This document shows positions 3,984 to 58,944 of a DNA stretch of 64,000 bases, piece after piece. Position 1 is the first letter of the stretch. Each line of letters starts with the position of its first letter. Below the pieces are notes generated by a model. That model was given only the letters and a program-made list of their open reading frames with translations, searched no databases and was not told the origin of the DNA. The stretch covers positions 38,688,867 to 38,752,866 of the forward strand of contig CAIIXF020000008.1 of the NCBI GenBank assembly GCA_903813345.2. The letters are read 5' to 3'. Made by a program: the position numbers and the translations under genes. The DNA comes from Owenia fusiformis (taxonomy: Eukaryota > Annelida > Polychaeta > Sabellida > Oweniidae).

Positions 3984-4103
3984 ATGGCGGCCCCTGGGAA
4001 AATGTTAGTGCGATCAAAAAGTGGCCTTCGCACCGTCAGTTTAGAGGAAGATGTCTCTAGTCCATTCCTGTTAGATGAACCACCATGGATACCAGATAAT
4101 GAG
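3984..4103 (+). CDS. ZFYVE21: ZFYVE21 coding exon 1
   Basis: Encodes residues 1-40, from [16 protein letters not shown] to WIPDNE, ending in phase 0 before GTAACA. The ATG at 3984 is chosen because it opens the homologous N-terminus. A second ATG at codon 7 would start directly at MLVRSKSG and is a possible alternative start. The 5' UTR boundary cannot be fixed from sequence. Confidence 0.93.
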
Positions 4104-7100: not shown

Positions 7101-10100
7101 ATTTTTCAAACATGACTGTTCACTGTTCAAATTGGGAGGGGTTCACTTTTCAAGGTTTTTTAACATTTGAGTCAATGGGAGGAAAAATGGGACCAAAAAA
7201 GTGTTCAAATTGGGAGGTGTTCGGATTAGCCAAGTGTTCAAATATAAAGCTTTTACTGTACTACATTTGTTTCCAAATTTTTGGAGGAAAGTGTACATCA
7301 TTTCAGAGAAATGACAGGAAACACACTGCCATGGGAACTGGTCATATCAGATGTCCCACGCTTTACTTCCAGAAGAGGTCATTTTCCAGGATTATAGATG
7401 AACAATCAGCCAATCAATGATATAGTTTACATAAGAGAAGTATGACTGTATGAATTCTGGGATATTCCTGTTTTGTTGAGCCGGATGAGAATAAAATTAA
7501 CCCTTTGCAAAATTGATCAAAACTCATTATTAATTTTCTTGGAGGGGAAAAGCCCCCCTTCCAAACTGCTGTCAAAGCTCATTCTCTTCACATTTAACAC
7601 TATTATTTGTCAATGTTTTTTCAACAAAGGATTGGTATGGTGAATTGAATTCAACAGTAGTTTTCTCTTAATTCAATTATTGAAAACATTCCGTAAAAAA
7701 CAGTTCTTTATGTAATGTTGACTGATTGACAACAATTTAATGCGCAAAATTATTTATATATATTTCATATAACTGTTTTTGTTAACATTTTTATGTTTTT
7801 TAGAGGAATTGTTTTTTGTTCCTTTCTACCAATTCTTGAGAATGAAATAAAATATCTTTCCGAACCTTATTGGAACAAAATAGCACTATAATATTTTAGT
7901 TTAAATACAAAGGAAATTTTGGTTGATTTAACAAAAGGTATTCAAAAAGTTAAAACAAAAACCCCAAAAATGGATAAAAATTAAGATAAACTTTCCTTTG
8001 TACAATTACAATATTGAGAGACCTAAACACGTTGTGTTTGTCATTTTGTTCCAATGAGGTTTGGATAGATGTTTCATTTCATTCCGAACATATGAGGCCA
8101 AGAACAAAAGAAGTGTCTGGTGTGTTTTCTAAATCAATAAAGAGAAAAGTATATATTTTTTTTCAAATCATATTGCTACCATTTAAAAGATGACCATTAC
8201 ATTGACAATGTGTAAAAGTTTCAGAATTTTTTGATGACTGGTTTAAGAGAAACTTGTGTTCAAAGAGTTCACCAAATCGATACCAATCCTTTGCAGAATA
8301 ATTTTTTTTGTATGTGGGTGAGATTACCCAAATGGCTTCACCAATGTTATGGGTTATTTTTACATATAATGCATCATGCATAATGCTACACATTAGAAAA
8401 AAATACTACTTTTCCCTAAAGAGCAAGAAACAAGAACATCCATTAAAAACAGCCCAGTAATACATTTAACAGGCCCCTTATTAGAAAAGTCTGTGATCCG
8501 GTATTTGTGCATTCTAATCTGGTTTTTATTGAATTTGCTTCTGATTTCAAAATTTACAGATCTGATATTTATTGACTACTAAACTTTTAGTAGGTTTTCT
8601 TTAATAAGGCAATGTGAGTATGTGGAAATTGATATGTGTATCCTGTCACCCCTGCAAAATAATGGACTTGCCGACTTGGTCTCTTGGATCCACTTGTAAA
8701 ATATATATAACCACTAGTAAGTCCAGATATAGTAGAATTTGTGTCTATAATGACAAATAAGAACTTAAAAATTTGAAGTAGAATTCACATGCTAATGCCG
8801 ACTCTTCAAATGTTGAGGTGATTTTAGAGCCCGATTGCGCCGCAATGTGGATTAACTCCCAGCATGCAACATGACACATGTCAGCTTTCAAAATACCATT
8901 TTGCCATTTTGAAATCTGTCACGAGTAAATAAGGTTACCTGATTTGCATTCTGGGAGTCAATCCTCCTTGGATCACAAACATGGGGATTCATGAAAACAT
9001 TCGTTCGATTTGGTTTGGATTTATCTATCATTTGCAGGTATGAAGCTTTGGGAATTATTTTTCAACCACTTGGGAGAGTTTGAGACACAAAACTTATAAT
9101 TTAGCTCATTGTGACAACTTTTGAGGGTTGAGATTTATTTTTGTCCCCCACTGTATATCTATGTCAGTAATCTGCGAAAGGCTTATACGCCCATATAAAA
9201 CAGATATATATAATTTAACAGTGATAGAATTTGAATAGAATATAATTTAAAACCTTAACATATAAAAATAGATCTATGTTTTACAACTCATTTTAAAATT
9301 GAAAGAAACCTTCCTGGTTGGCCCCTGTTGGCCTAGGAAGTCCCTTTATGTTGAAACCAGTAGTGCAGGCTTGTTGCTGTGCACTAGGGACCTTTTACAT
9401 TAAAACATAGATCTAAACACACACCTATTTAATTGCAGTTATTGACATAGGCATAGTATGATGATTTAAAAGTACTTAGACTGTCACAGTCTAGGATATC
9501 ACCTGGTAGGGGGTTCCATTTAGCTAGGGAAATAGCTAAATTTGTATGTATCCGTTCTAGTTGATGGTTGTATGAACTTAGAAGGATGATTCAGTGGCTC
9601 CCACTGTAGGTCTTGAAGAGCTTTGGTGACTAAGCCTGGTTCCCTTGAGTGGCATTTGGTTACAAACCTGGCTGCTCTTCTCTGTACCTGATCCAACATA
9701 TGAATATATTTTTGTCGGTATGGATCCCATGCCGAACTGGCATACTCTAAATTAGGCCGGTCAATATAGTGACTTATACGCCTGAGCCTTCACTTTTTCA
9801 GGGCATTGATGGGGGTTGCACCTGAGAAATCCAAGCACCTTATTGGCTTTGGATACAATAGTTTGAATATGTGTAGTCCAGCGTAAGTTATTTGTGATGT
9901 CAATATCTAGGTATGGGATGTGTGTTACCGACTTAAGGTTTTCCCCTAGTATGGTGTAATTGTGAATGATAGGGGATTTACCTTTGTGAATATTTAGCAC
10001 ATAGCATTTTGATGGATGGAATTTCAATTGCCATGTTGATGCCCAGGAGACCAGTTTATCTAGATTCTCCTGTAGTGTTAATGCATCTTGCTTGCTTTCG

Positions 10101-13100
10101 ACTGTCATGAATAAAAGGCTGCCCTCAGCAAATAGCTTAGATATGACAGTGACAGTGGTTGTAAAAGGCCTGTCATGACCATGGTGATGTTAAAGCCTGA
10201 TATGTCAGTGACAATGGTTGTAAGGCCTGTCATGACCATGGTAATGTTAAAGCCTGATATGTCCGTGACAATGGTTGTAAGGCCTGTCATGACCATGGTA
10301 ATGTTAAAGCCTGATATGTCCGTGACAATGGTTGTAAGGCCTGTCATGACCATGGTAATGTTAAAGCCTGATATGTCCGTGACAATGGTTGTAAGGCCTG
10401 TCATGACCATGGTAATGTTAAAGCCTGATATGACCGTGACAATGGTTGTAAGGTCTGTCATAACCCTGGTAATGTTAAAGCCTGATATGACAGTGACAAT
10501 GGTTATAAGGCCTGTCATGACCGTGGTAATGTTAAAGCCTGATATGTTTGTGACAATGGTTGCAAGGTCTGTCATAACTCTCGTAATGTTAAAGCCTGAT
10601 ATGACCGTGACAATGGTTGCAAGGTCTGTCATAACCCTGGTAATGTTAAAGCCTGATATGACAGTGACAATGGTTATAAGGCCTGTCATGACCGTGGTAA
10701 TGTTAAAGCCTGATATGTCAGTGACAGTGGTTGCAAGGTCTGTCATAACTCTGGTAATGTTAAAGCCTGATATGACCGTGACAATGGTTGCAAGGTCTGT
10801 CATAACCCTGGTAATGTTAAAGCCTGATATCACAGTGACAATAGTTGTAAGGCCTGTCATGACCGTGGTAATGTTAAAGCCTGATATGACCGTGACAATG
10901 GTTGCAAGGTCTGTCATAACCCTGGTAATGTTAAAGCCTGATATGACAGTGACAATGGTTATAAGGCCTGTCATGACCGTGGTAATGTTAAAGCCTGATA
11001 TGTCAGTGACAGTGGTTGCAAGGTCTGTCATAACTCTGGTAATGTTAAAGCCTGATATGACCGTGACAATGGTTGCAAGGTCTGTCATAACCCTGGTAAT
11101 GTTAAAGCCTGATATCACAGTGACAATAGTTGTAAGGCCTGTCATGACCATGGTGATGTTAAAGCCTGATATGACCGTGACAATGGTTGTAAGGTCTGTC
11201 ATAACCGTGGTAATGTTAAAGCCTGATATGACAGTGACAATGGTTGTAAAAGGCCTGTCATGACCATGGTGATGTTAAAGCCTGATATGTCCGTGACAAT
11301 GGTTGCAAGGTCTGTCATAACCCTGGTAATGTTAAAGCCTGATATGTCCGTGACAATGGTTGTAAGGTCTGTCATAACCGTGGTAATGTTAAAGCCTGAT
11401 ATGACAGTGACAATGGTTGTAAAAGGCCTGTCATGACCATGGTGATGTTAAAGCCTGATATGTCAGTGACAGTGGTTGCAAGGTCTGTCATAACTCTGGT
11501 AATGTTAAAGCCTGATATGACCGTGACAATGGTTGCAAGGTCTGTCATAACCCTGGTAATGTTAAAGCCTGATATCACAGTGACAATAGTTGTAAGGCCT
11601 GTCATGACCGTGGTAATGTTAAAGCCTGATATGACATTGACAGTGGTTGTAAAAGGCCTGTCATGACCATGGTGATGTTAAAGCCTGATATGACCGTGAC
11701 AATGGTTGTAAGGCCTGTCATGACCGTGGTAATGTTAAAGCCTGATATGACATTGACAGTGGTTGTAAAAGGCCTGTCATGACCATGGTGATGTTAAAGC
11801 CTGATATGTCCGTGACAATGGTTGTAAGGCCTGTCATGACCGTGGTAATGTTAAAGCCTGATATGTCCGTGACAATGGTTGCAAGGTCTGTCATAACCCT
11901 GGTAATTTTAAAGCCTGATATGACAGTGACAATGGTTATAAGGCCTGTCATGACCGTGGTAATGTTAAAGCACGATTTGACTGTGACAATGGTTATATAA
12001 AATGACAATTGGTATTTTGAGAATACTTTAATGAAAAATATTATCATTTAACTTCCTTAATATGTAAATATAGAATACTATGTGCATGGTACTCACATAC
12101 ATTGAAACATAAAATTTTAGATTCATGTTAACTCATAATTCATTTCCACAAACTATAATTCTAATCTTATTCAATCATGAACGTTCGATTCGATAACACA
12201 TACTTTCTATGATGATCAATCACCTCTCTAACCAACAACATGAATGTACAGCAGAATAGTTTAGTGTTATCTTGTTCCAACCTATTAGTATTTCAGTAAT
12301 TTTCAGTTTTTGAAATTTCGCAGATATTGATTTTTGTAGATTTGTCATACAAGATCACTCTTTTGACTTCCATAACACCGATGGTTGTTCCTTCGCCCAA
12401 TGATTTTGGCTTCTTATTAAGCCATTTTGTCAGAATGTTCAATTTAATGCAGTATATAGTAATTATGATCTTTCTAGTTTCTCTTTTTCAAAACTCAAAA
12501 AACTTATTGTGCCTTAGTAGCTGCTTAGATCAAGTGTGATGAAGCTGTTTTATTATAGCTCAGTAGCTGCTTATATAAAGGGTTATAAAGCTGTTCTATA
12601 GGATGAGCCTGAAAGGCTAACCCAAACAAATGTTTGAATTCCATCTTCCAACATGGATTTACAATCATATTTGGCACAATTGAAGCTTGTTCAATGTCAT
12701 TTCATTCTTCTAGTTTTTATGGCCATTTTACAAAATATGCTTCAAATGCAGAAAAATCACCTGATATGAATCCAAAACTTTTATCTTTGGAGATATTTCA
12801 AAGATAATGTCCACACTTTCAACCGTAGAAGCATAGGAATAGTGAGAGGGGTATCATGGTGCTTGTACAACCCCCCCCCCCCCAATTTGCCTCAAACCCC
12901 ACTTTCGGTATAAAATGAACCCCAGCTGGGAACAAACCCCACTCTCAGAAATTGACTATTCACATTGAATGAACTAAATAATTCTGAAATTTCAAGGCAA
13001 AATATGCAAAATTGGCCGAGTTATTCAACTTTCTTTCCTGGTTTTGGACACCCTGTATTTGATGATGCACAGATTATATTCTGTAATTTGATTGGTTTGT

Positions 13101-16100
13101 TGTAACAGTTTCCTTCGTCCAAACCCTCTCCTTCGCCTTGAACTCCAACCCCCCCCCCTTTGTTATAAAATGAGCCCTCTGGCATGGGAAAAAATTGAAC
13201 CCCCTGTCATATAATCATGACAAATAATACAACTCGGTATTTATTGTCTCATTACACCCCCTTTGGTAAATCCTGGGTACACCCCATGAAGCATCAGAGA
13301 GTTGAAACAAAATATATCTGATATCACCTGCACATTCAAATTGGCCTCAGAGATTGAAATAGCATTTTGAGGATGTTGTAAAATAGCCATAAAGTCATTG
13401 GTCATTTGAAATAGACCAATGAAACTTGGTGGAATGAAAGAACATTGAACATGCAAAATATATTATTTAAAACCATGCTGGATGACTGAATTATTTACAT
13501 TTGTTTGTGCTACCTTTTATTCAAATGTGATGAAGCTACTCTTAAATGCCTCTGTAGCTGCTTATATAAAGAGTGATGAACCTATTCTATTTTGCCTTTT
13601 TTACTTTTATGCAGCTCAAACCATCTATCTTGGTACTAGATAGTAGATATCCATTGTACAAAGAGTCTACTTTTGGTCTAGAATGCCCTAGGTGAAAATC
13701 CATGCATAGTGCAAATAATATTCCAAAGGAAATTACTCTTGTGTCTTTAAAACAATATAATATGAATAGGAACTGTATGTGTTATTCTTATTCTTATAAG
13801 TGTTTTTTTGTTGTTGTTGTAGTGCTCCAGCTGCATCCAGTGCCAAAAGAAGTTTGATTGGTCATGTAGAAGGGTGAGTAGAAGCTCCTTAAAGGGGCAA
13901 CAAGGCCTGTAGAGAGAAAATAGGAAAATTTTAACTTTTTCTGAGCTATCAAGGCAACATTTGGCTAAACATCTTTTTTGACATACCTATTTTCTTAAAA
14001 TGTATGGATTAACTATCAATTTCAGCATTTATAAGTGTAAATTCAGTTCAAAGCTTCAAAAAGGGGAAATCCACTTTTATATTCTAGGGGGTTTCTTTGT
14101 AGATAATAAAAATAGTAAGTCCTGATGAAATATCCAAACTGGTCCATGGTAACATTGTGAAATTGCTGCAATCCTTAACAGTTACATTGTTAAATAGCTA
14201 CAATCCTTAATAGTAGCATTATGAAATAGCAAATCCTTAATGGTAACATTGTTAAATAGCTGCAATCATTATTAGTAACATTGTTAAATAGCTGCAATCC
14301 TTGAAAGTAACCTTGTTAAATAGCTACAATCATTAATGGTAACATTGTTGAATAGCTGCAATCCTTAATAGTTACATTGTTAAATAGCTACAATCATTCA
14401 TGGTAATATTGTTAAATAGCTGCAATCCTTAGTAGTAACATTGTTAAATAGCTGCAATCCTTAATAGTTACATTGTTAAATAGCTGCAATCCTTAATAGT
14501 AACATTGTGAAATAGCTGCAATCCTTAGTAGTCACATTGTTAAATAGCTGCAATCCTTAATAGTAACATTGTAAGATAGCTGCAATCATTAAGAGTTACA
14601 TTGTTAAATAGCTGCAATCCTTTATAGTTACATCGTGAAATAGCTGCAATCCTTAATAGTAGCATTATGAAATAGCAAATCCTTAATGGTAACATTGTTA
14701 AATAGCTGCAATCCTTTATAGTTACATTGTTAAATAGCTACAATCCTTAATAGTTACATTGTTAAATAGCTACAATCCTTAATAGTAACATGATTAAATT
14801 GATGCAATCCTTGATAGTTACATTGTGAAATAGCTATAATCCTTAATAGTAACATGATTGAAATAGCTTAAATTCTAACAGTAACATGTATTTATTTATG
14901 TGTTGCAGCATCACTGTCGCAGATGTGGCCGTATATTCTGTAGCAGTTGTTGTGACAACAGTGCCCCATTGCCACGCATGAGTTTTGTTGACCCAGTACG
15001 TCAATGTGCCGACTGTGTGCTCAAGACAAAGAGAGAAAATGATTTCTTTGAAAAATATGTTAAAACTTTAATCAATGGTAAATATCTGTTTTATATGATA
15101 TTTTATTACCTTGCAGAATTATGTACTGATCAGAATATAATTACTGAAAAATTGGACTTTCTCCAAATAAACTGTTTTTTGGATTTGCTCATTCATGTCT
15201 ATATTTCTAAAAATATTTATAATTCTGTGTTAAGTTTGAAGCACATTGCTGTTGCGCTAAATACAATCAATTAATGTTTGATCAATTGTTCTTCTTGAAT
15301 TAAAAAAGTTGCTTTTGAACATCTTTGTATAAGAGAATGTTGAATTTGTCACATTTGGGCAAAATTAATCCATGAATTTAATTTTTCTCAATGTAAATTT
15401 CAGCCAGATCATATATTTTCTTCTGTCTTGCAGGTGCCACGTTTCATGTGAAGAGAATGGTCAACAACCAGGAGACACTGGATGTCTCTGTCTGCAAGAT
15501 GTCAGCTGATCAAAGGTATGTAGTTCCCGTGTCATGTCATTATCATCCCATCAAACAAAGTTCTGAGGGATATAGGGAACACCTCCATCTGTCTGGATAA
15601 TAACTCAAATAATACATGGGAATAGAAGTTCTGCTTGAAGGCTAGTATAAGTTCTGCTAGTAGGCGGCCATTTACCTTTATGTGTGTACGATTTTGTTGA
15701 AATTTTACTTTTAGAAGCATTAAACTTTTTCATGACAATTTGGCTAGTGAGTGACCATTTTGAAAATGATGGCTATTTTTATGTGTGTAATTTTACTATT
15801 TTTGTTATTACTGTTAGAGTTGTAGACTGACTTTGTAAAAATGGCAGCCATGGCTGTTTGATGGGATTTGCTACCATTTAGCATTGTTGTTATCTAGTTT
15901 TGAACATACTGTACTCCCGGTAATTTTCGCGCACTATATTTCACGCTTTTTGTGAATTTTGGAAAATTCGCGAAATATACAGGAGTACAGTATATCACAT
16001 TTTATTACTTTGCAGATATATCACATTTTATTATATACAGGGTGTCCAAAAAACAGGACCCAAGAAAGTTACTCATTTGGTAGATTATCATCAAACTTTC

Positions 16101-19100
16101 ACAGAAAAATTCACATTGAATCTGTCTGTCCAGGTGATAACTCAAATACAAGTTGACAGATAAGGTTTAAATTTTATAGGCTGAAACTTGATTAAGATAG
16201 GACCGTTTCTCAAGAATGAATTTTCTGATTTAAGGTGCTCATAGGCTTAGAACTCTGCTCAAGAAGAATTTTTCAGGAGAGCTACTGGTGTAGATTTTTC
16301 CAAAAGGAGACAATATGATTATACTAGCTACCTGTTTTATCATGTTATTTTGAAAATGATGAGTGATTTGATAAAATATGTTTTGTTCCATGGCATTTGC
16401 TTCTATCGGGAGTTTCTCTAGTTATTCCAGATATATTACATTTTATATTTTGCAGATATATTACATTTGAAGGAGGAAATGGTCTGGAACCAATCAACCT
16501 CACCCGCCTGGAAGGAGTACAGATCATCACGTCTGGAGCTGATGCACAGGGTGAGCCACAATTAGCACATTTTAAAATGATATATTCATGTACTGGGAGA
16601 GCAACTTTGTGAAATTCATTTTAGCCTACCTTATTAGTAATAACCAGTCGTGTAACAGCCTGTGAGGAAAGCAGTCAGGTTTTATTGCTCAGATATTTTC
16701 AGTCGATTCAATATTCCTGGAAAATTACTCATTAGACTTACTTGTTTTGTTTTATTATTATAAATTTTATTAACTTAATAACAAAATTGAAACATTTTTA
16801 CAATTTTTACATAATATACAGGGGTATATAAAATATATTAATATATACATGATAATAGTAATATAAATTCTTAAGTGTTATTACTGTTATGGAATGTTTC
16901 AACAAAACCTTGTAAAAATCTGACAAATCCGTTTGAGCATACTGCTCAGACCAATATTCATGGATAGAATTACTTGTTACTGTGTTTGGTATCCGATTAT
17001 ATTGTAGAACATATTATACACACCTTATTTTGTACTGCATATTGTAATACATGTCTGTACAGAGAAAGAAGGTGAGGGGAAACTACTTGCATGTAGGTAA
17101 AACTGTGTTTAAATGTCAACAAACTGTGTTGTACTGTACTGTACTGTACATTTTATTATACAAACACCGTATATTGTGCTACATATTGTAATGCATATAC
17201 CCTGTATATTCACACTACCCTACCTTGATCGTGCATGCGCTAGATTTTTGACTTTCGCTCAGTCCACTGCTGAGTAAAATTACTGCAATAATATATGGTC
17301 ATCTTATGAATGGTAACAATATAATTTGAAAATATATATATATACTTTCATCTATATTGTTTTAGAAAACACATCAAACACTTGTTTTGTTCTTGGTATG
17401 ATGTTTTCAGAGTGAAATGAAACATCTTTCCAAACCTCTTTGGAACAAAACGACATAAACACAACATGTTTAGGTCTCTCAATATTGTAATTGTGTAAAG
17501 GAAATTTTGGTTGATTTTAAAAAAGTATCTTGAAATAAAAGGTTTTTTCTTGATTTTTATCTATTTTGGGTCGATTTTGTTTTAATTGTGTAAAGGAAAT
17601 TTTGGTTGATTTTAAAAAAGTATCTTGAAATAAAAGGTTTTTTCTTGATTTTTATCTATTTTGGGTCGATTTTGTTTTAATTTTTTGAATACTTTTTTAA
17701 AATCAACCAAAAACTCCTTTGTATAACTATATAATATTGAGAGGTCTAAAAACATTTTGTATGCTATTTTGTTCCAACAAGGTTCAGAAGGACATTTTAT
17801 TTCATTTTTAAGAATTGGTAGAAAGGAGCATAAACAATTGCAATAAAAAAAAACAAAAAATGTTATAACAAAAAAAGTTATATAAAATATTTCTAAATGA
17901 TTTTCGCATGAAATTGTTGTCAATCAGTCAACATTACATAAAATACCGTGTTTTTTTTACAGAATCTTTTCGATAACTGGTTTAAGAGAAAAACATTGTT
18001 GAATTCAGTTCACCATATCGATACCTATCCTTTCCAGAACCTTGTGATTGCCCTGTATATATAAACACCCTACATTGTAGTACATGTTATAATTTACATA
18101 TGCTGCATATTGTGTTACATATTGTACTTTTATTTACATATGATATACTATTAGTCAACTTAATTTGGCGGGATTTAATTTGGCGAATTGGGCAAATTTA
18201 GAAAATTGGCAGAGATTTAATTTGAAGAATTTAGCATCAATAAATGGCTGTAAAATTGGCAAATTTCACAGTAGAATCAGTATTAACGGTCATCATTTTA
18301 CACTCTTATTTCCTTCAGAAAATAATAGAAAATTGTTTTGTTCATTTTATTTTTGTGACTTTCTGACACCAAATGGTCCAATTTATTGGATAAATCAGAT
18401 CTTGAACATTTAACCATGATACACAATTTTTCCGAACATAAATTACACTAGACGAAAATTTCCCAGGGATTTCTGAAAAATTGGCGAAGACATGAATTTG
18501 CGAATTTTATCAATTTGCCAAATTCGCCAAATTAAATTGTTTGCCAATGAAGTTGGCTAACAGAAGACTGTTTTGTACAGCAGTCTACAAAGAACAATGG
18601 GAGGTTGAATACATACTAGATGCATTTTTGGGACATTTGTGATGTACAGGATGTCAAAAAACAATGGCACCCCCTCTACAGCAAAAAGTCCTTAATATTC
18701 TTTATCGTGTCATACCGTATTTGAAAGATTTCAACTGCACTGACCATATGGGTTCATTTCTGAAAAACAGGGTATAGGAACTGATGGGCAAAGAGCCTCT
18801 TGAAAAAAGACACAGTAAGGATGTATTTCTGAAGAATGTGAGGAAAGTGCTAAGAGGATTTAATGCAATGCTACACCTTTATTTGAATTTTTATTGAAAT
18901 CATATCCGTCCAGATAAGCTGCTGTTTGAGTAGCAACTACTAAGAATCAGCTGTAAATCTGTAAAATTATATGATATAAAGCTGAAATTTGTCAGGTAAC
19001 TCCAGAATTAAATTGTCTTTAAAATGAGATAAGACACACCATGTAACATTAAGTACTTTTTGCTGTAGAGGGGGGATGCCATTGTTTTTTGACACCCTGT

Positions 19101-22100: not shown

Positions 22101-25100
22101 TTGAAAAAATAAATCTTCCAGATTTTTGAATTTTCTTAAAGAAATCGCCTATTCCCCCACCCGTGATATTGCACAGTGTCCTATTTCACATTTTCTCTGA
22201 ATATTGGCCTTTGCATGTTATGCACTTTTGATATTTGTCAGGTCTTCCACTGTGACTTGTAGTGTTTTTGCCTCCCACATTGGAAGTTGTCATCTGGGGT
22301 TCAGTCATCATTTTAAAATCTCTTCTACCACCTCATAATTGTAATTCCATCTGGTCTATACTCCTTTCATATTTTCTTCATGGTAGCATAAGTTTATGTG
22401 GTTGGGAGTGGCTGGGAATTTCTTGTCTGTGACTGAATTTGAATTTGTGACTTTTGAACTGTGGTATTATGACATCAAAGTGGTAAATGTCATTTTTTGT
22501 ACTTGGTTAACATCATGCTGAATAAATTCAACAATTTCCAAAACATTTTGATTATTTAAAAGAAAGAAATATTAATAAATTAACATTTTGAAGCTTTTCA
22601 TGATTAGAAAAATTGTTACCTGCCCCACCCATCCTATCCCCGTGTTGCTATAGCAACCATTTTAAGACTTAATATTAATGTATGCACGCCGACACTTCAG
22701 GATATAACAGATAAAACTTCAATTGTTATATACACAAAATTCCAGCTAAATTAAACAATATTACAGTTAGAGCATATAGTGCATTACTTCTGGGACAACC
22801 CTAGCATACATTACAATATTGCAAGTCTGCCAAATGAAGTAGCCGTGTCAAATGTTCAAAACAGTAAATCTGCCAAAATAATTAGCACCAAATTAAGTAG
22901 AAGTACAGTATACTTCAGTGTATAAGTCATTGTATTTTCAATGTTGCATCATTCTGAACTGCACAATATACTTATATTATCTTAGGGAACACAGTTGCAT
23001 CCGGCATATCACTTAAGTTCAGCAACCGACAAGGAGATTTACAGAAACTGCAGCTGTCAGCACCAGAGACCACAAACAAACGACCCTGTCTTCTCTGGAT
23101 AGCTGCTATGCAAAAGGTAAGAAATATATACAAACAAATGACCCTGTCTGCTCTGGATAGCTGCTATGCAAAAGGTAAGAAATATATACAAACAAACGAC
23201 CCTGTCTGCTCTGGATAGCTGCTATGCAAAAGGTAAGAAATATATACAAACAAACGACCCTGTCTGCTCTGGATAGCTGTTATGCAAAAGGTAAGAAATA
23301 TATACAAACAAACGACCCTGTCTGCTCTGGATAGCTGCTATGCAAAAGGTAAGAAATATATACAAACAAATGACCCTGTCTGCTCTGGATAGCTGCTATG
23401 CAAAAGATAAGAAATATATACAAACAAACGACCCTGTCTGCTCTGGATAGCTGCTATGCAAAAGATAAGAAATATATACAAACAAACGACCCTGTCTGCT
23501 CTGGATAGCTGCTATGCAAAAGATAAGAAATATATACAAACAAACGACCCTGTCTGCTCTGGATAGCTGCTATGCAAAAGGGAAGAAATATATACAAACA
23601 AACGACCCTGTCTGCTCTGGATAGCTGCTATGCAAAAGGTAAGAAATATATACAAACAAACGACCCTGTCTGCTCTGGATAGCTGCTATGCAAAAGGTAA
23701 GAAATATATACAAACAAAAGACCCTGTCTGCTCTGGATAGCTGCTATGCAAAAGATAAGAAATATATACAAACAAACGACCCTGTCTGCTCTGGATAGCT
23801 GCTATGCAAATGATAAGAAATATATACAAACAAACGACCCTGTCTGCTCTGGATAGCTGCTATGCAAAAGGTAAGAAATATATACAAACAAACGACCCTG
23901 TCTGCTCTGGATAGCTGCTATGCAAAAGGTAAGAAATATATACAAACGAACGACCCAGTCTGCTCTGGATAGCTGCTATGCAAAAGGTAAGATATATATA
24001 CAAACAAAAGACCCTGTCTGCTCTGGATAGCTGCTATGCAAAAGGTAAGAAATATATACAAACAAACGACCCAGTCTGCTCTGGATAGCTGCTATGCAAA
24101 AGGTAAGGGATATATACAAACAAAAGACTCTGTCTGCACTGGATAGCTGCTATGCAAAAGGTAAGAGATATATACAAACAAAAGACCCTGTCTGCTCTGG
24201 ATAGCTGCTATGCAAAAGGTAAGAAATATATACAAACAAACGACCCAGTCTGCTCTGGATAGCTGCTATGCAAAAGGTAAGGGATATATACAAACAAAAG
24301 ACTCTGTCTGCACTGGATAGCTGCTATGCAAAAGGTAAGAGATATATACAAACAAACGACCCTGTCTGCTCTGGATAACTGCTATGCAAAAGGTAAGAAA
24401 TATGTACAAACAAACGACTCTGTCTGCTCTGGATAGCTGCTATGCAAGAGGTAAGAGATATACAAACAAAAGACCCTGTCTTCTCTGGAGAGCTGCTATG
24501 CAAAAAGGAAGATATATATACAAACAAAAGACCCTGTCTTCTCTGGATAGCTGCTATGCAAAAAGGAAGATATATATACAAACAAAAGACCCTGTCTTCT
24601 CTGGATAGCTGCTATGCAAAAGGTAAGATATATATACAAACAAACGACCCTGTCTATTTGGATAGCTGCTATGCAAATGATAAGAAATATATACAAACAA
24701 ACGACCCTGTCTGCTCTGGATGGCTGCTATGCAAAAGGTAAGAAATATATACAAACAAACGACCCTGTCTGCTCTGGATAGCTGCTATGCAAAAGGTAAG
24801 AAATATATACAAACGAACGACCCAGTCTGCTCTGGATAGCTGCTATGCAAAAGGTAAGAGATATATACAAACAAAAGACCCTGTCTGCACTGGATAGCTG
24901 CTATGCAAAAGGTAAGAGATATATACAAACAAACGACCCTGTCTGCTCTGGATAACTGCTATGCAAAAGGTAAGAAATATGTACAAACAAACGACTCTGT
25001 CTGCTCTGGATAGCTGCGATGCAAAAGGTAAGAGATATATACAAACAAACGACCCTGTCTGCTCTGGATAGCTGCTATGCAAAAGGTAAGATATATATAC

Positions 25101-27970
25101 AAACAAACGACCCTGTCTGCTCTGGATAGCTGCTATGCAAAAGGTAAGATATATATACAAACAAACGACCCTTTCTGCTCTGGATAGCTACTATGCAAAA
25201 AGTAAGATATATATACAAACAAAAGACCCTGTCTGCTCTGGATAGCTGCTATGCAAGAGGTAAGAGATATACAAACAAAAGACCCTGTCTTCTCTGGAGA
25301 GCTGCTATGCAAAAAGGAAGATATATATACAAACAAAAGACCCTGTCTTCTCTGGATAGCTGCTATGCAAAAAGGAAGATATATATACAAACAAAAGACC
25401 CTGTCTTCTCTGGATAGCTGCTATGCAAAAGGTAAGATATATATACAAACAAAAGACCCTGTCTGCTCTGGATAGCTGCTATGCAAAAGGTAAGATATAT
25501 ATACAAACAAAAGACCCTGTCTGCTCTGGATAGCTGTTATGCAAAAGATAAGAGATATAAACAAACAAAAGACCCTGTCTGCTCTGGATAGCTGCTATGC
25601 AAAAGGTAAGATATATATACAAACAAAAGACCCTGTCTGCTCTGGATAGCTGCTATGCAAAATGTAAGATATATATACAAACAAAAGACCCTGTCTGCTC
25701 TGGATAGCTGCTATGCAAAAGGTAAGATATATATACAAACAAAAGACCCTGTCTGCTCTGGATAGCTACTATGCAAAAGGTAAGAGATATATACAAACAA
25801 ACGACCCTGTCTGCTCTGGATAGCTACTATGCAAAAGGTAAGATATATATACAAACAAACGACCCTGTCTGCTCTGGATAGCTGCTATGCAAAAGGTAAG
25901 ATATATATACAAACAAACGACCCTTTCTGCTCTGGATAGCTACTATGCAAAAAGTAAGATATATATACAAACAAAAGACCCTGTCTGCTCTGGATAGCTG
26001 CTATGCAAAAAGGAAGATATATATACAAACAAAAGACCCTGTCTGCTCTGGATAGCTGCTATGCAAAAGGTAAGATATATATACAAACAAAAGACCCTGT
26101 CTGCTCTGGATAGCTGTTATGCAAAAGATAAGAGATATAAACGAACAAAAGACCCTGTCTGCTCTGGATAGCTGTTATGCAAAAGATAAGAGATATAAAC
26201 GAACAAAAGACCCTGTCTGCTCTGGATAGCTGTTATGCAAAAGATAAGAGATATAAACGAACAAAAGACCCTGTCTGCTCTGGATAGCTGTTATGCAAAA
26301 GATAAGAGATATAAACGAACAAAAGACCCTATCTGCTCTGGATAGCTGCTATGCAAAAGGTAAGAAATATATACAAACAAACGACCCTGTCTTCTCTGAT
26401 AGCTGCTATGCAAAAGGTAAGATATATAAACAAACAAAAGACCCTGTCTGCTCTGGATAGCTGCTATGCAAAAGGTAAGAAATATATACAAACAAACGAC
26501 CCTGTCTGCTCTGGATAGCTGCTATGCAAAAGGTAAGAAATATATACAAACAAACGACCCTGTCTTCTCTGATAGCTGCTATGCAAAAGGTAAGATATAT
26601 AAACAAACAAAAGACCCTGTCTGCTCTGGATAGCTGCTATGCAAAAGGTAAGAAATATATACAAACAAAAGACCCTGTCTGCTCTGGATAGCTGCTATGC
26701 AAAAGGTAAGAAATATATACAAACAAACGACCCTGTCTTCTCTGATAGCTGCTATGCAAAAAGGAATATATATAAACAAACAAAAGACACTGTCTGCTCT
26801 GGATAGCTGCTATGCAAAAGGTAAGATATATATACAAACAAAAGACCCTGTCTGCTCTGGATAGCTGCTATGCAAAAGGTAAGATATATATACAAACAAA
26901 AGACCCTGTCTGCTCTGGATAGCTGCTATGCAAAAGGTAAGATATATAAACAAACAAAAGACCCTGTCTGCTCTGGATAGCTGCTATGCAAAAGGTAAGA
27001 AATATATACAAACAAAAGACCCTGTCTGCTCTGGATAGCTGCTATGCAAAAGGTAAGAAATATATACAAACAAACGACCCTGTCTTCTCTGATAGCTGCT
27101 ATGCAAAAAGGAATATATATAAACAAACAAAAGACACTGTCTGCTCTGGATAGCTGCTATGCAAAAGGTAAGATATATATACAAACAAAAGACCCTGTCT
27201 GCTCTGGATAGCTACTGTGCAGAAAGTAATTATAGATGTTGCTTATTGAATATATCTTGCTTAAATCTTAAATGTACATTGTATATAAAAGGGGAACATT
27301 TTTTCTGTTTCTTATTCATGACATCACACCTCAAAGCTGAAATACCTAGAAACAGTACCCATAAACACAAGATTTGAATTCTTCCTCCAAATGGTAAATC
27401 ACTTATTGACAGACAAAAATGATCATAAATATATATATTTGTTATCCCAAAGAGAAAAGTTCAACAGGGATATAGAAAAGCTGTCAGTCTGCTGATGCCT
27501 ATAGACAAAAGAAGTATATTTAAGAAGAGATTTTTAAGGTGGCTGCTGAATTTAAATTGGCCACATTTTTCATCACCACTCTTTGATAATTCAAATACCA
27601 GTAGACGGATTTGGTTCACATTTTGGATGCTTATGCTCTATGATACAGGAGCTCTCAAGGGCAGCTGAATTTCAAAATGGCCACCATTTTGGGTAAAAAC
27701 ATAATCTTTGTTAACTGAAATGCCAGTGGATGAATTAAATGGTTCATAATTTATATGTTGATATCCAAGGCTAACTAAGGAGCTATGCTCAAGAAGAAAT
27801 TGTCAAGATAGCCACTATTTGTCAGAACATGTTTTGTTTGGTGGGATTTGCTACTCCCTGGAGTTGCTGTTTTCTTGTTACATTTTATTTTCATTTACAT
27901 GCATTTCCAGGCTGTGAAATTACTGTATGAAACAAGAGGAGTTAGTGCAACTACCCCTGTTACACCCTAG
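3984..27970 (+). CDS. ZFYVE21: ZFYVE21 orthologue, FYVE zinc-finger endosomal protein, seven coding exons
   Basis: Joining 3984-4103, 13823-13873, 14909-15077, 15434-15515, 16456-16550, 22986-23116 and 27911-27970 gives 708 nt, i.e. 235 residues plus stop, with every junction in phase and flanked by GT and AG. Human ZFYVE21 is about the same length. Order of parts: an N-terminal leader with the LVRSKSGLR motif, the FYVE entry motif WIPD (35-38), eight zinc ligands (C44, C47, C60, C63, C68, C71, C90, C93) around the RRHHCRRCG core, PVRQC at 86-90, then a PH-like C-terminal domain (about 114-235) ending in KLLYETRG. In the family, FYVE and PH-like modules bind phosphoinositides on endosomes and the protein acts in focal-adhesion turnover and endosomal signalling; that role is by homology. 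The introns are swollen with repeats, and intron 6 is almost entirely copies of the exon 6 end. Confidence 0.95.
4391..5635. mobile_element. Inverted-repeat element with repeated AACTGCGCGCCTA motifs
   Basis: Ends TGCCCATGTCAAGC (4389) and GCTTGACATGGGCA (5620) are inverted. Next to both ends, and again inside near 4430, 4813, 4853, 4876 and 5202, lies the motif AAACTGCGCGCCTA in one or other orientation. Subterminal motif arrays of this kind are typical transposase binding sites. No transposase is encoded, so the copy is non-autonomous. Confidence 0.65.
5741..6134. mobile_element. ~394-bp MITE, first of an abutting inverted pair
   Basis: Ends TAGAGTCCATTTC and GTGAAATGG with about 120-bp inverted arms containing TTGGGAGACCATTGTGC-like sequence. 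It meets a second copy in opposite orientation at 6134/6135 with a few collapsed bases at the junction. Open frames on both strands are arm artefacts. Confidence 0.7.
6135..6529. mobile_element. Second copy of the same MITE, inverted
   Basis: TAGAGTCCATTTCACTGCTT at 6135 pairs with AAGCAGTGAAATGGACTCTA ending 6529. The interior matches 5741-6134 as reverse complement. TA-type ends. Confidence 0.75.
6535..8713. mobile_element. 2.2 kb inverted-repeat element flanked by CTAGTAAG
   Basis: GGTTATATATATTTTGCAAG at 6535 pairs with CTTGTAAAATATATATAACC ending 8712; the arms continue through GTGGATCCAAGAGACCAAGT and its complement. The 8-mer CTAGTAAG occurs at 6527-6534 and 8714-8721, consistent with an 8-bp target duplication. 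The interior includes repeated GTGTTCA..TTGGGAGG segments (6830-7230) and a further palindromic MITE. Confidence 0.7.
7615..8301. mobile_element. ~690-bp palindromic MITE, copy 1 of a two-copy family
   Basis: AAAGGATTGGTATGGTGAA (7626) is inverted to TCGATACCAATCCTTT (8275). The interior halves mirror each other (TGGAACAAAATAGC against TTTTGTTCCAATGAGG). The family recurs inverted at about 17380-18045. Confidence 0.65.
9470..10139 (-). pseudogene. Non-LTR retrotransposon reverse-transcriptase fragment (jockey/CR1-like)
   Basis: The minus strand reads [19 protein letters not shown] from about 10138, where FAEG is a mutated FADD catalytic box. It continues through [14 protein letters not shown] and [22 protein letters not shown], then after frameshifts [18 protein letters not shown] and [12 protein letters not shown]. 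This is the thumb/C-terminal part of a LINE reverse transcriptase. The fragment is cut at the catalytic box exactly where the 57-bp minisatellite starts. Confidence 0.85.
10140..12000. repeat. 57-bp minisatellite, about 32 copies
   Basis: Unit core GTTAAAGCCTGATATG then GTGACAATGGTTGTAAGG then CTGTCATGACC. The period 57 is a multiple of 3, so open frames of over 360 codons arise on both strands with a 19-residue period (one starts [16 protein letters not shown]). Variant units alternate (GGCCTGTCATGACC versus GGTCTGTCATAACC), showing higher-order structure. No codon bias or start context supports translation. Confidence 0.95.
12001..13822. other. Rest of ZFYVE21 intron 1, no gene recognised
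   Basis: Mostly AT-rich. Poly-C runs near 12870 and 13150 sit in segments reading AAACCCCACT and TGAACCCC that look like a decayed inverted-repeat element. GGACACCCTGTA near 13046 is an orphan mariner-type end. AGTAGCTGCTTATATAAAG recurs near 12562 and 13556. Confidence 0.4.
13823..13873 (+). CDS. ZFYVE21: ZFYVE21 coding exon 2
   Basis: A 51-nt phase 0-0 exon after a T-rich tract ending GTTGTAG and before GTGAGT. It encodes [17 protein letters not shown], residues 41-57, with the first zinc-ligand pair (C44, C47) and the RR that leads into the HHCRRCG core. Too short to be found as an open frame; identified from homology between exons 1 and 3. Confidence 0.93.
14135..14880. repeat. 32-bp minisatellite in intron 2, about 22 copies
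   Basis: Unit pieces GTTAAATAGCTGCAATCC and TTAATAGTAACATT repeat from about 14150 to 14880 with point variants and one shortened unit occurring twice. The last, degenerate unit contains TTCTAAC (14873-14879), a good branch-site match 30 nt before the exon 3 acceptor. Confidence 0.93.
14909..15077 (+). CDS. ZFYVE21: ZFYVE21 coding exon 3 (FYVE core)
   Basis: Begins [15 protein letters not shown] and runs through [13 protein letters not shown] to TLIN, residues 58-113 plus the first base of codon 114. Six of the eight FYVE ligands lie here. The acceptor is GTTGCAG; the donor is GTAAAT, a weak site at which the frame otherwise reads on to a stop at 15272-15274. A 32-bp minisatellite ends about 30 nt upstream of the exon. 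Confidence 0.95.
15434..15515 (+). CDS. ZFYVE21: ZFYVE21 coding exon 4
   Basis: 82-nt exon, entry phase 1, exit phase 2, bounded by CTTGCAG and GTATGT. It encodes [17 protein letters not shown] and on to SADQR, the first strands of the PH-like C-terminal domain, aligning with the family segment that starts SGATF and ends SNNQR. Confidence 0.92.
15907..15992. mobile_element. 86-bp hairpin MITE in intron 4
   Basis: TACTGTACTCCCGGTAATTT pairs with AATATACAGGAGTACAGTA. Similar TACTGTACTT ends bound the larger element at 20857-22912. Confidence 0.55.
15990..16040 (+). other. Duplicate of the exon 5 acceptor context
   Basis: TTATTACTTTGCAG/ATATAT at about 16002-16021 closely copies TTATATTTTGCAG/ATATAT at the true exon 5 start (16456), including the preceding CACATTTTA. 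The downstream bases soon diverge and do not encode exon 5. Confidence 0.6.
16456..16550 (+). CDS. ZFYVE21: ZFYVE21 coding exon 5
   Basis: 95-nt exon, entry phase 2, exit phase 1. Encodes [20 protein letters not shown] and on to TSGADAQ, central PH-like domain. The acceptor TTTTGCAG sits in a locally duplicated AT-rich stretch, and a near copy of the same acceptor context lies 440 bp upstream. The donor is GTGAGC. Confidence 0.92.
16551..17379. other. Start of intron 5, no gene recognised
   Basis: AT-rich with TATATTGTGCTACATATTGTAA-like short repeats (about 17000-17210). No feature beyond that. Confidence 0.3.
17380..18045. mobile_element. Second copy of the 7615-8301 MITE family, inverted
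   Basis: ATTGTTGTCAATCAGTCAAC and TAAGAATTGGTAGAAAGGAG are reverse complements of sequence at 7720-7740 and 7815-7850. A 110-bp direct duplication (TTGTGTAAAGGAAATTTTGG at 17490 and 17586) is private to this copy. Confidence 0.65.
18151..18560. mobile_element. AATTTGGCG inverted-repeat element
   Basis: TTAGTCAACTTAATTTGGCG (about 18151) is inverted to CGCCAAATTAAATTG and GAAGTTGGCTAA (about 18525-18560). The AATTTGGCG motif also appears in the BANF1 intron (63316-63382). Confidence 0.55.
18647..19099. mobile_element. 453-bp mariner-type MITE
   Basis: CAGGATGTCAAAAAACAATG pairs with CATTGTTTTTTGACACCCTG, and the arms extend through CCCCCTCTACAGCAAAAAGT. The left flank is TA, the right is a mutated TG. 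Confidence 0.75.
19100..20856. other. Intron 5, unique-looking AT-rich stretch
   Basis: No exon, RNA gene or repeat could be supported. Short open frames here lack any recognisable domain. Confidence 0.3.
20981..22805. mobile_element. 1.8 kb mariner-type element with an inner palindrome
   Basis: GAGGGTTGTCCCAGAAGTAA pairs with TTACTTCTGGGACAACCCT, and GTGGGGCAGGTTA (21170) pairs with TTACCTGCCCCACCC (22617), so arms of about 190 bp. The end sequence is mariner-like. No transposase frame is left. The centre is another palindrome. Confidence 0.75.
21252..22147. mobile_element. ~900-bp palindrome nested in the mariner-type element
   Basis: Arms of more than 350 bp mirror each other: TTCAAGAGAAAGTTTACAAC (21296) pairs with GTTGTAAACTTTCTCTTGAA (22086). 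Near the centre GGGGGGAGTGAATGGAGGGG is inverted to CCCCCTCCATTCACTCCCCC. Confidence 0.8.
22986..23116 (+). CDS. ZFYVE21: ZFYVE21 coding exon 6, whose 3' end seeds the intron 6 array
   Basis: 131-nt exon after ATCTTAG, in phase. Encodes [20 protein letters not shown] through [15 protein letters not shown], matching the family segment that ends WLVAMHK. The donor is CAAAAG/GTAAGA. The last 45 nt (from 23072) plus 13 intron bases form unit one of the 58-bp tandem array that fills intron 6. Because this coding stretch is conserved in the family, the array derives from the exon and not the reverse. Confidence 0.93.
23072..27216 (+). repeat. 58-bp array of exon 6 end plus 5' splice site, about 71 copies, filling intron 6
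   Basis: Unit one is real sequence: 45 nt of exon 6 (encoding [14 protein letters not shown]) plus GTAAGAAATATAT. The unit then repeats to 27216 with 56-58 bp spacing. Most copies keep CAAAAG/GTAAGA, so dozens of intact 5' splice sites lie in one intron. Some copies lost it (AAAAGATAAGA, AAAAAGGAAGA). Because 58 is not a multiple of 3, read-through passes through three frames and meets TAG (in TCTGGATAG) within about two units. Higher-order duplications are visible: the block with a 56-bp unit near 24440-24600 recurs about 809 bp later, and a ~173-bp trimer repeats near 26290-26840. Open frames here are by-products. Confidence 0.97.
27911..27970 (+). CDS. ZFYVE21: ZFYVE21 terminal coding exon 7
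   Basis: After TTTCCAG the frame reads [19 protein letters not shown] and stops at TAG 27968-27970. It aligns with the family terminus AAKLLYESRDQ, with about eight extra residues here. The exon starts in phase 0, which matches the true end of exon 6 but not exon extensions by one or two 58-nt units. Confidence 0.93.
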   Translation, partial: AVKLLYETRGVSATTPVTP

Positions 27971-44048: not shown

Positions 44049-46083
44049 TGTTTCCAATCTTCTTCTGTAAAGTTGAATTTTGAATTTAGATATTTTTTCC
44101 CGTTAGGTTCTTTAAATAAATTATCTACGAGAATCCAATATATGGTTTTAGTTTTTATAGCTTTGACGTTTATTGTCGTGTTTTTGATTTGGAGCTCTTC
44201 GTTTTTAAGTGCCTTGTTGCTTCGATTGGTTTTTAATATGTTGTTTCCAGGAGTGTGGAATTGCATGAATTAAGCCATAGAAAGTAACGAAAGGTGTATT
44301 AATATTTTATTTTAAAGAGAAATCTTCGAAACCTAAGAATTCATTATTGTTAACGAGATCTTTTATTTGAAGGATTCCTTTACTTATCCAGCTTGCATAA
44401 TTTAGGGTTTTGTCGTTAATTTTTATGAACTCATTATTCCAGATATACTCTTTTAAAGCAAATTCTTTATTATAAGGCTCTTTATTATGTAATAATTTCC
44501 AAGTTTCCATGATATTATAGTAGAAAGGGGGTAACCTGGCTAACTTGTCATCGGGAAATTTTGAATGAAATATTGTCTCCGAGTCTAGATTAGGAAAATA
44601 GCTGTAGAAATATTGCTTCCATTTGCTGGGCTTCTTCTGGTATAATCTTTTTACCCATTGTATTTGTAAAGCTTTTATTTGCGTTTCAAAATGTAAGCTC
44701 TTGATTCCCCCTTTTTAATTTTTCCTATGGTTGTTAAATTGCTTATTAATGGAGGTTTTCTGTTCCATAAAAAGTTATTAATAAGATTTTGAACATTATT
44801 AATGATGTGTTTTGGTACAAGTATGGTTGATGCTAGATATGTTAGTTTTGAGATCCCTAGAGCTTTGATCAATACGTTTTTTTCCTATTAAGCTAAGGTT
44901 CCTCCATTCCCATATTTTAAACAAGTTTTCTATAGATTTAATCGTAGGAGAGAAGTTAGGTCATTCCGTTCGTTTATATTTTGACTAAACCATACTCCGA
45001 GGGTGTAAAAATTTTCATTATTGATTTTAATTTTTGAGACAAGACTTTTAGGTGCAATTTGTGGGGGTGTTGTTTTAAAAAGAGCTAACCGTCTTCTTTC
45101 TGTTTTCTGAAGGTTGGGCTTGAGGCCAGAAATTTCAGAGAATCTTTTTAGATTCTGAAGGGCATTTTCAGTTGATGCTATTGAATCTAGGAAAAAAGTT
45201 GTATCGTCCGCAAACATTGAAAGTTTAATCTCAGTATTATTCATAATAATGCCTTGAATATTTATATTTTGTCTAATAGATAAAGCTAATATTTCCGCCA
45301 CTATATGAAAAGGTATGCCGATAGGGGGCATCCTTGTCGGACTCCCCTAGAAGGTGAATACATTGTTGATTGGTATCCGTTGTTGGATATACACGTTTGA
45401 GCATTTTTGTAAAAGGTTTTTACCCATTTGATCAATGTATTACCAAAATTTTCAGTTAACGGAATCGAAGGCTTTCTCAAAATCGATTTGAAGGAGTAAT
45501 CCGGGGATGTTACCTTGGTCCGTGTATTCTAAAATATCTTCTATAATTCTAATGTTTTCCCCTATGTATCGGTCAGTTACATATGCGGATTGGTCGGTAT
45601 TTATTATGGATGTTAAGGTTTTTCGTATTCTGTTAGCAATTGATTTGGTGCCTATTTTATAGTCCGTGTTTAAAAGGGTAATTGGTCTCCAATTTTTGAG
45701 GAATAATATAATTTTATCTTTCTTGGAATTAAGGTGACGACACCTTGTTTTTGTGAGATAGAGAGTTCTCCATACTCAAAGTCATAATTCAAACTATCGA
45801 CAACTAGATCTTTATATTAATCCAGAAAAACTTGTAGAAGTTAGTTGTGAAACCATCAGTACCAGGAGACTTATCATTTGGCATATTTTTGAGAGATTGA
45901 GCACATTCTTCAATTGTTAACAAGCCCTCGCAAGACATCTTTTCATCTTCATTTAACTTTGGAATAAGGTATCATTTTTGTTTCGGTTCTCGATCTCCAA
46001 TTTTGTATTAAAATATTCATTTTGTAGTGCTTCCGTTACATCATCTATATTGGTTTCTAGAATGGATAATTTTGATTTCAATA

Positions 46084-57471: not shown

Positions 57472-58944
57472 GGGACCCAAGTTCTGAGAAACAGCTAGAA
57501 AGTGAAAATGGATATTGGAAAGTATTACGCGAGATTTTTTCAGTTCTTGTTGGAAAATAAGTTACTTTTATGATGTGGGGTGATATCTAGAGTTTGAGAC
57601 TTGCGAAAATAAGATATCTTCATCTTTATACCCCCCGCCCTATAATTTTAGGGGGGTCAGAAGAAAATAGACTTTAATTCATAACTTTGGAAGTATATGA
57701 GATATAAACTTAATTTTTTCACCAAAATTTATGAAATAACATCAGTAATGAAGAAAAAAATATTTTGAATGAAAAAAAGCTAATTTGCATAATTTAACCC
57801 TTAAACTGCCATAGAAACTAGTAAATGACGAAATGATGTTATATCACATTTACTGTTATTGCCTTCATATGAAGTTATAACTTATGAAATAATTCCTAAA
57901 AATGCATCTATATATTTATAATAAATGTGCAAAATATTAGAAGTGTATCTTAGACAAAGACTGTGAAAAAAATTCTCCCCCTACCCAGATTTTTGAGGGG
58001 AGGGGGTCAAATAAAAATGGACTTTAATTCATAATTTTAAAAGTATATGAGGTACAAACTTAATTTTTTCACCAAAGTTTATGTAATAACATCAGTAATT
58101 CAGAAAAAATATTTTTGATACGCAAATAAGTTAATTTGCATAATTTAACCCTTATACAGTCATAAAAACTGTTAAATGACGATGCGATAAAATACGACAT
58201 TTACTCTAATTGACCTCTCATGAAGTTTTAACAAATAAAGTAATTCCTAAAAATGCATCTATATATGTATAACAGATGTGCAAAATATTAAAAGTGTATC
58301 TTACATAACGACGCTGAAAAAAATTTGTCCCCCTACCCAGATATTTGAGGGGGGTCAAATGGAAATGTACTTTAATTCATAACTTTGGAAGTATATGAGG
58401 TACAAACTTAATTCTTTCACCAAAATTTATGTTATAACGTCAGTAATTCAGAAAAATATCTTGATATGAAAATAAGCTAATTTGCATAATTTAACCCTTA
58501 TACAGTCATAAAAAACGTTAAATGACAAAGTGATGAAATACGACTTCTATGAAGTTATAACTTGTGAAATAATTCCTAGAAATACATTTACAACAGGTAT
58601 GCACAATATAAAAAGGGTATTGTATATAATGAGTGTGAAAAAAATCTCACACCCTACCCTAATATTTTAGGGTTGGGGGAAGTTAAAAGAAAATAATAAA
58701 CTTTGATTCATAACTTTGAAATCGTATAAGAAAGAGCTTATACATGTATTTCTTCGCCAGAATATTGAGAAATCACATCAAAGTCACTATGGATATCAGT
58801 CATTTAGGCAAACAGACTTAATCGTTCATTTTCAAACATATGACATTCTACTTTAAAGTGAGTTTCTGTCTCCATTGACTGTCCACATGGGCACGATCTC
58901 TGGTCTAGGGGAGTTGCGTTATTTTTGTTTATATTTCAATATAA

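Follow-up and report, generated by a model that had tools for sequence, protein, structure and literature searches.

Competition between donors of comparable strength was reportedly treated by Roca et al. in 2013, and Turri, Cuin and Porter are said to have found in 1995 that the minisatellite of human IFI6 (6-16, G1P3) provides multiple splice donor sites. The IFI6 array consists of some 26 copies of a 12-nt unit, which keeps the reading frame, and it begins at the exon's own end. According to one account, two repeat units further downstream also act as donors, so that three mRNAs arise (PMC4526556). For fission yeast, Zhu and Niu (2013, PMC3629103) describe introns built of 24-nt tandem repeats. 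The Rogers/Hellsten model, as outlined in PMC4974935, concerns the gain of introns through tandem duplication. Among annelids, the earthworm metallothionein genes have minisatellites in their first intron (PMC12783039). Within the open-licence literature, beyond which the search is a weak negative, IFI6 was the printed case of a donor-bearing repeat that was found, by way of citations.

The locus described here lies in a 64,000-nt stretch of DNA from Owenia fusiformis, referred to below as the window, which contains the ZFYVE21 orthologue of this species (zfyve21; coding extent 3984-27970, plus strand, as for all zfyve21 features below). The gene model comprises seven coding exons (3984-4103, 13823-13873, 14909-15077, 15434-15515, 16456-16550, 22986-23116 and 27911-27970) with compatible phases and six introns, all GT-AG, and encodes a 235-aa product. 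An O. fusiformis protein record matches the whole of this product at 100% identity and forms a cluster of one member; the other 104 of the 105 homology matches are all at or below 54% identity, with scallop, ribbon worm and other animals contributing the next closest, ZFYVE21-like proteins at about 50%. Two Pfam domains scored above cut-off, FYVE (PF01363, 60.8 bits) and ZFYVE21_C (PF16696, 95.9 bits), in the arrangement that identifies ZFYVE21, a FYVE finger with the C-terminal PH-like domain of ZFYVE21 after it. The model, its domains and the identical record thus uphold the assignment to ZFYVE21 made in a preliminary description of this DNA.

Exon 6 (22986-23116, 131 nt) is followed by intron 6 (23117-27910, 4794 nt), of which 4114 nt (23117-27230) belong to a minisatellite array and 680 nt lie outside it, with the acceptor at the end. 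The coding part of exon 7 (27911-27970) contributes 19 codons and the stop. Homology continues across the junction of the two exons, where an alignment with human ZFYVE21 (PDB 2rrf; E 8.6e-10 for the whole sequence) passes without a gap (AMQK/AVKLLYE). In an AlphaFold2 model built on an alignment of 33 sequences (mean pLDDT 91.0, pTM 0.84; block means of 94, 96 and 77 for residues 201-230), the C-terminal helix is predicted to span residues 204-227, with the junction K216/A217 inside it and its completion in exon 7. W210, A213 and A217 are nearly invariant among the 33 aligned sequences, Owenia included. The identical Owenia protein and the gapless 2rrf alignment both support an end of exon 6 at 23116, the position given in the preliminary description.

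The array itself is a 58-bp minisatellite at 23072-27230, each unit of which is a copy of the end of exon 6 together with its 5' splice site. TRF reported a single array (23072-27229) with 71.8 copies of period 58 and 94% matches; its score of 6979 was the top of 43 rows. Cyclic alignment of 23072-27230 to the consensus resolved 72 units, namely 64 of 58 bp, 5 of 57 bp, 2 of 56 bp and a last, partial one of 50 bp. Unit 1 (23072-23129) takes in the last 45 nt of exon 6 (23072-23116) and runs 13 nt into intron 6; it is the only copy joined to the exon body. The authentic donor of the gene model, AAG/GTAAGA (positions -3 to +6), lies at 23114-23122, and the four consecutive decoys in units 2-5 (23130-23361) have an 11-nt donor identical to it. 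The full motif CAAAAG/GTAAGA is found in 45 of the 72 units, and 53 retain the junction GT; unit 72 (27181-27230) is a partial and diverged edge copy that reads AAA/GTAATT. An array of exon ends with their donors, of 45 exonic and 13 intronic nt in about 71 copies, most of them keeping CAAAAG/GTAAGA, is what the preliminary description had reported, and this observation is confirmed. Thirty-nine of the 72 unit sequences are distinct, and some blocks are repeated (units 9-15, for instance, match units 3-9 when one difference per unit is allowed), the usual pattern of an expanding minisatellite. The motif GATAG occurs 14 nt upstream of the donor in 67 units, preceded in unit 3 by a 73% pyrimidine stretch, and each unit with this motif has both an acceptor and a 14-nt microexon in latent form.

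Donor strength was expressed as the energy of the duplex with the 5' end of U1. The authentic donor scored -9.5 kcal/mol, and the five other zfyve21 donors ranged from -5.3 to -11.7 kcal/mol. Pairing as strong as that of the authentic donor or stronger was found in 49 of the 72 units, unit 1 included, which leaves 48 such copies downstream; the partial unit 72 scored -3.2 kcal/mol. Elsewhere in the window, 17 of the 3488 GT sites reach the U1 pairing of the real donor, and the array donors are therefore not a product of chance. The choice among near-identical donors, raised in the preliminary description, is thus a real problem for this transcript. Predicted RNA accessibility was 0.143 at the donor of unit 1 and 0.150 at that of unit 2, with a median of 0.075 for the 53 GT donors, among which unit 1 ranks sixth; the first 232 nt of the array are predicted to fold like shuffled sequences (z 0.02). 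With unit 1 and unit 2 so similar and the fold unremarkable, the analysis gave no support to decoys hidden by RNA structure, although a predicted accessibility of about twice the median may help unit 1 slightly. Since neither the donor sequence nor the predicted accessibility and fold single out unit 1, position remains as a cue.

In its anatomy, the array is closest to that of IFI6: in both, the units carry a 5' splice site and several donors face one acceptor. The Owenia units are of minisatellite length and bear a GT in 53 cases and a strong U1 site in 49, and the authentic exon end (23116) falls in the first unit (23072-23129), as is also the case in IFI6. The Owenia array, however, with its 72 copies of a 58-bp unit, extends over 45 nt of coding sequence and alters the frame, whereas that of IFI6 is smaller and in frame. 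For IFI6, the donors of downstream units are reported to be used; the likeness of the Owenia array is one of anatomy. The fission yeast introns and the Rogers/Hellsten model share with Owenia tandem exonic copies with splice-site-like motifs inside an intron but, in those cases, the repeats make a new intron and both of its sites. In Owenia, the intron looks older. Its acceptor at 27911 is not part of any duplicated copy, being 680 nt past the array, and the unit already includes 13 nt of intron; intron gain by AGGT tandem duplication was rejected on these two grounds. The two-donor genes of PMC6002489 resemble Owenia in that near-identical donors compete for one acceptor; they have two sites, whereas Owenia has 49 strong ones, of which the most intron-distal is apparently used. 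Earthworm metallothionein genes are alike in having a large minisatellite inside the intron of an annelid gene, but the accessible part of that account (PMC12783039), unlike the present case, is silent on splice sites within the units.

The preliminary description knew of no described case of this scale. That statement calls for a qualification, since a donor minisatellite is known from IFI6 and introns of 24-nt repeats are known from fission yeast; neither of these repeats is known to reach the size of the Owenia array. The kind itself has a precedent, and what is new in Owenia is the larger size relative to IFI6, the span over coding sequence and the shift in frame.

The age of intron 6 was surveyed in the protein models of the 105 homologues, 92 of which match the helix motif pattern; the other 13 were set aside. 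Four of the 92 break exactly after the equivalent of K216. Three of these, from Pinctada imbricata (a bivalve), Nymphon striatum (a sea spider) and Zootermopsis nevadensis (a termite), continue with V, as if reading through into GT, and that of the tick Ixodes persulcatus continues with L. At least eight of the 13 models set aside end earlier, by eye, in unrelated sequence, so that models break elsewhere too. These protein models suggest that an intron at the exon 6-7 position is common to several phyla and that intron 6 is probably old.

Donors other than the first were translated into their predicted products. One extra unit would give 241 aa with a foreign C-terminus and a stop that ends 20 nt inside exon 7, the last exon. 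Two extra units would give 249 aa, ending at a TAG (23216-23218, in unit 3) that lies 14 nt upstream of the junction; three would give the same 249-aa protein with the TAG 72 nt upstream, and with four this distance grows to 130 nt. The same in-frame TAG would end the products of donors 3 to 72, that is, of 70 of the 72. Stop codons within 50-55 nt of the last junction usually escape nonsense-mediated decay (NMD), and invertebrates may differ in this respect. By this rule, only products with three or more extra units would be classic NMD targets. The frame shift by an extra unit had been anticipated in the preliminary description and is seen in the foreign ends of these products. Its further claim, that most isoforms become decay targets after about two units, holds from three extra units onwards, where the TAG is at least 72 nt before the junction, and fails for one or two, with a stop in the last exon or only 14 nt from the junction. 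Because the junction after K216 falls inside residues 204-227 of the predicted helix, any donor other than the first would break this conserved C-terminal element. A coding role of the array was rejected, given that donors 3 to 72 all lead to the one TAG and that the exonic part drifts at the neutral ratio.

For selection within the array, distinct changes from the consensus were counted in 71 units, the partial unit being left out, and P was taken as the share of 20,000 random-column draws; the tests are rough, as the copies are related through block duplication. There were 36 distinct changes. The three junction columns (44-46) held 4, against 1.9 expected (P=0.10), and the nine donor columns held 9, against 5.6 expected (P=0.08). 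Of the distinct changes that fall in the exonic part, 5 are synonymous, out of 30 possible, and 17 non-synonymous, out of 105; a common synonymous C/A difference at column 9, where the consensus carries A, stands outside the synonymous count. The copies thus vary like unconstrained DNA, with at most a hint of an excess at the junction. Purifying selection on the decoys was rejected, since variability in the donor columns is no lower than elsewhere. Selection against decoys is the direction in which the same counts lean, though not significantly: the somewhat above-average variability of the junction columns would fit a weak effect, dead donors are split almost equally between the halves of the array, with 9 among the first 36 units and 10 among the rest (units 37-72), and all of units 2-5 have kept their donors. 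Of the two readings of the donor-killing changes offered earlier, neutral decay therefore suffices and selection is needless, and the loss of U1 sites along the array, for which a check had been proposed, shows no departure from an even distribution between its halves.

The array is one of many in this DNA. Thirteen merged TRF arrays, including the 58-bp one, account for 16,657 of the 64,000 bases of the window (26%), and arrays take up 6,947 of the 23,987 bases of the zfyve21 coding extent. In a genome so rich in repeats, an array over a splice junction is no large coincidence. The units of the arrays are highly varied, from 21 to 351 bp, also outside zfyve21. Intron 2 contains a 32-bp array of 23 copies (14149-14887) that ends 21 nt before exon 3 (14909); CTTAAC or CTTAAT occurs at 12 places in it, and its last copy has CTAAC at 14875, a likely branch point. 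A second splicing signal of zfyve21 may thus sit at the edge of a minisatellite. In intron 1, an array at 10140-11994 with 32 copies of a 57-bp unit is open on both strands (375 aa on the plus and 389 aa on the minus strand), as can arise when the unit is a multiple of 3, and its 375-aa plus-strand frame gave no Pfam match. The arrays at 57645-58544 (351-bp unit) and 60378-61657 (350-bp unit) are one repeat in opposite orientation, about 83-89% identical. Short minus-strand open frames at 45304-45528 and 9764-10189 resemble fragments of non-LTR reverse transcriptase by eye, with no Pfam match at E 0.001. Pfam searches of ten open frames other than zfyve21, chosen by eye, found no match (0 of 10), and Rfam and tRNA scans of the whole 64-kb window returned no matches.

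Taken together, these data make it probable that the array is a tolerated, neutrally drifting minisatellite across an old exon-intron boundary, and that the first donor is used by position. A 58-bp stretch comprising the 3' end of exon 6 and the first bases of a pre-existing intron 6 would have been duplicated in tandem and would have grown to about 72 copies within the intron. The first donor would be selected, via exon definition or co-transcriptional pairing, because it lies at a normal exon distance (131 nt) from the acceptor of exon 6 and is transcribed first, despite the 48 equal or better copies downstream, and the whole array would then be spliced out as intron. A low, tolerated leak into units 2-5 is conceivable, as a guess. 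When exon 7 follows the first donor, the conserved protein results, which is the one on record, and no alternative-donor product of zfyve21 was present among the 105 homology matches, none of the others exceeding 54% identity. The record, the window and the published annotation (PMC9977687) probably represent one assembly. That annotation used RNA-seq junctions, with 31,678 of 31,903 transcripts supported by RNA-seq, and its pipeline also took protein homology hints (PMC9977687); the donor in the Owenia record may reflect a prediction guided by homology. According to PMC6002489, a choice between two comparable donors favours the intron-proximal one, by a mechanism stated as unknown. Taken literally, this rule predicts use of the last intact donors, near 27167, rather than the first, with loss of the normal product. 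The locus thus pits exon definition against intron proximity, which is its real interest.

A ladder of isoforms with an effect on dosage, in which later units serve as donors in a substantial fraction of transcripts, decay removes those carrying at least three extra units and copy number tunes zfyve21 output, appears improbable. It draws on the 48 decoys that equal or beat the real donor in U1 pairing, on the intact units 2-5, on stop positions that predict NMD from the third extra unit onwards and on the two downstream repeat units that serve as donors in the available account of IFI6 (PMC4526556). The first-donor product, however, is the only one found among the homology matches, and the array shows no sign of maintenance, its donor columns not being depleted of changes. 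Splicing in several steps, with later donors used first and the remaining array removed at the AG that ends each unit, so that the frame is restored, would profit from the zero-length AG/GT junction of the 45 units with CAAAAG/GTAAGA and from the widespread GATAG with its pyrimidine stretch in unit 3. Recursive sites have an AG/GT after a pyrimidine tract, yet in the unit measured pyrimidines make up only 47% of the tract before the unit-end AG, whereas the six zfyve21 acceptors reach 60-87%, and that AG lies 14 nt downstream of a better one, the use of which would add 14 nt and shift the frame; this route is very unlikely.

A role of the run of U1 sites in its own right, either through U1 bound on the last intron that counters premature polyadenylation or through titration of U1, is suggested by 49 strong sites in 4.2 kb and by an intron 6 with no AATAAA and one ATTAAA, compared with 24 and 18 in the zfyve21 coding extent. 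Repeat makes up 86% of the intron, though, and its unit simply lacks AATAAA, and the copies drift as if neutral, which leaves such a role very improbable. Tandem arrays are also prone to assembly errors, and the Owenia assembly was built from PacBio reads with Canu according to its description. The 39 distinct unit types nevertheless disfavour a simple copy artefact, similar arrays occupy much of the window and, if the window comes from that published assembly, the read N50 given there (25.75-30.75 kb) far exceeds the 4.2-kb array, so that there is very little likelihood of an inflated copy number or a misplaced array. Positional choice of the first donor of a drifting array is accordingly the reading that we retain. 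A bolder form of it, in which the first and most intron-distal of the 49 strong donors wins by position alone, contrary to the bias towards intron-proximal donors known from pairs of sites, array length sets the fraction that leaks and is degraded, and copy number acts as a heritable expression dial, is put forward tentatively and is rather unlikely.

As a real donor beside dozens of identical signals, zfyve21 represents an extreme natural test of splice-site choice. Its 49 strong, near-identical donors stand about 58 nt apart, with strength constant and mainly position varying, and the use of donors per unit would yield a positional rule directly. The locus shows that a minisatellite can grow across a coding splice junction with the reading frame intact.
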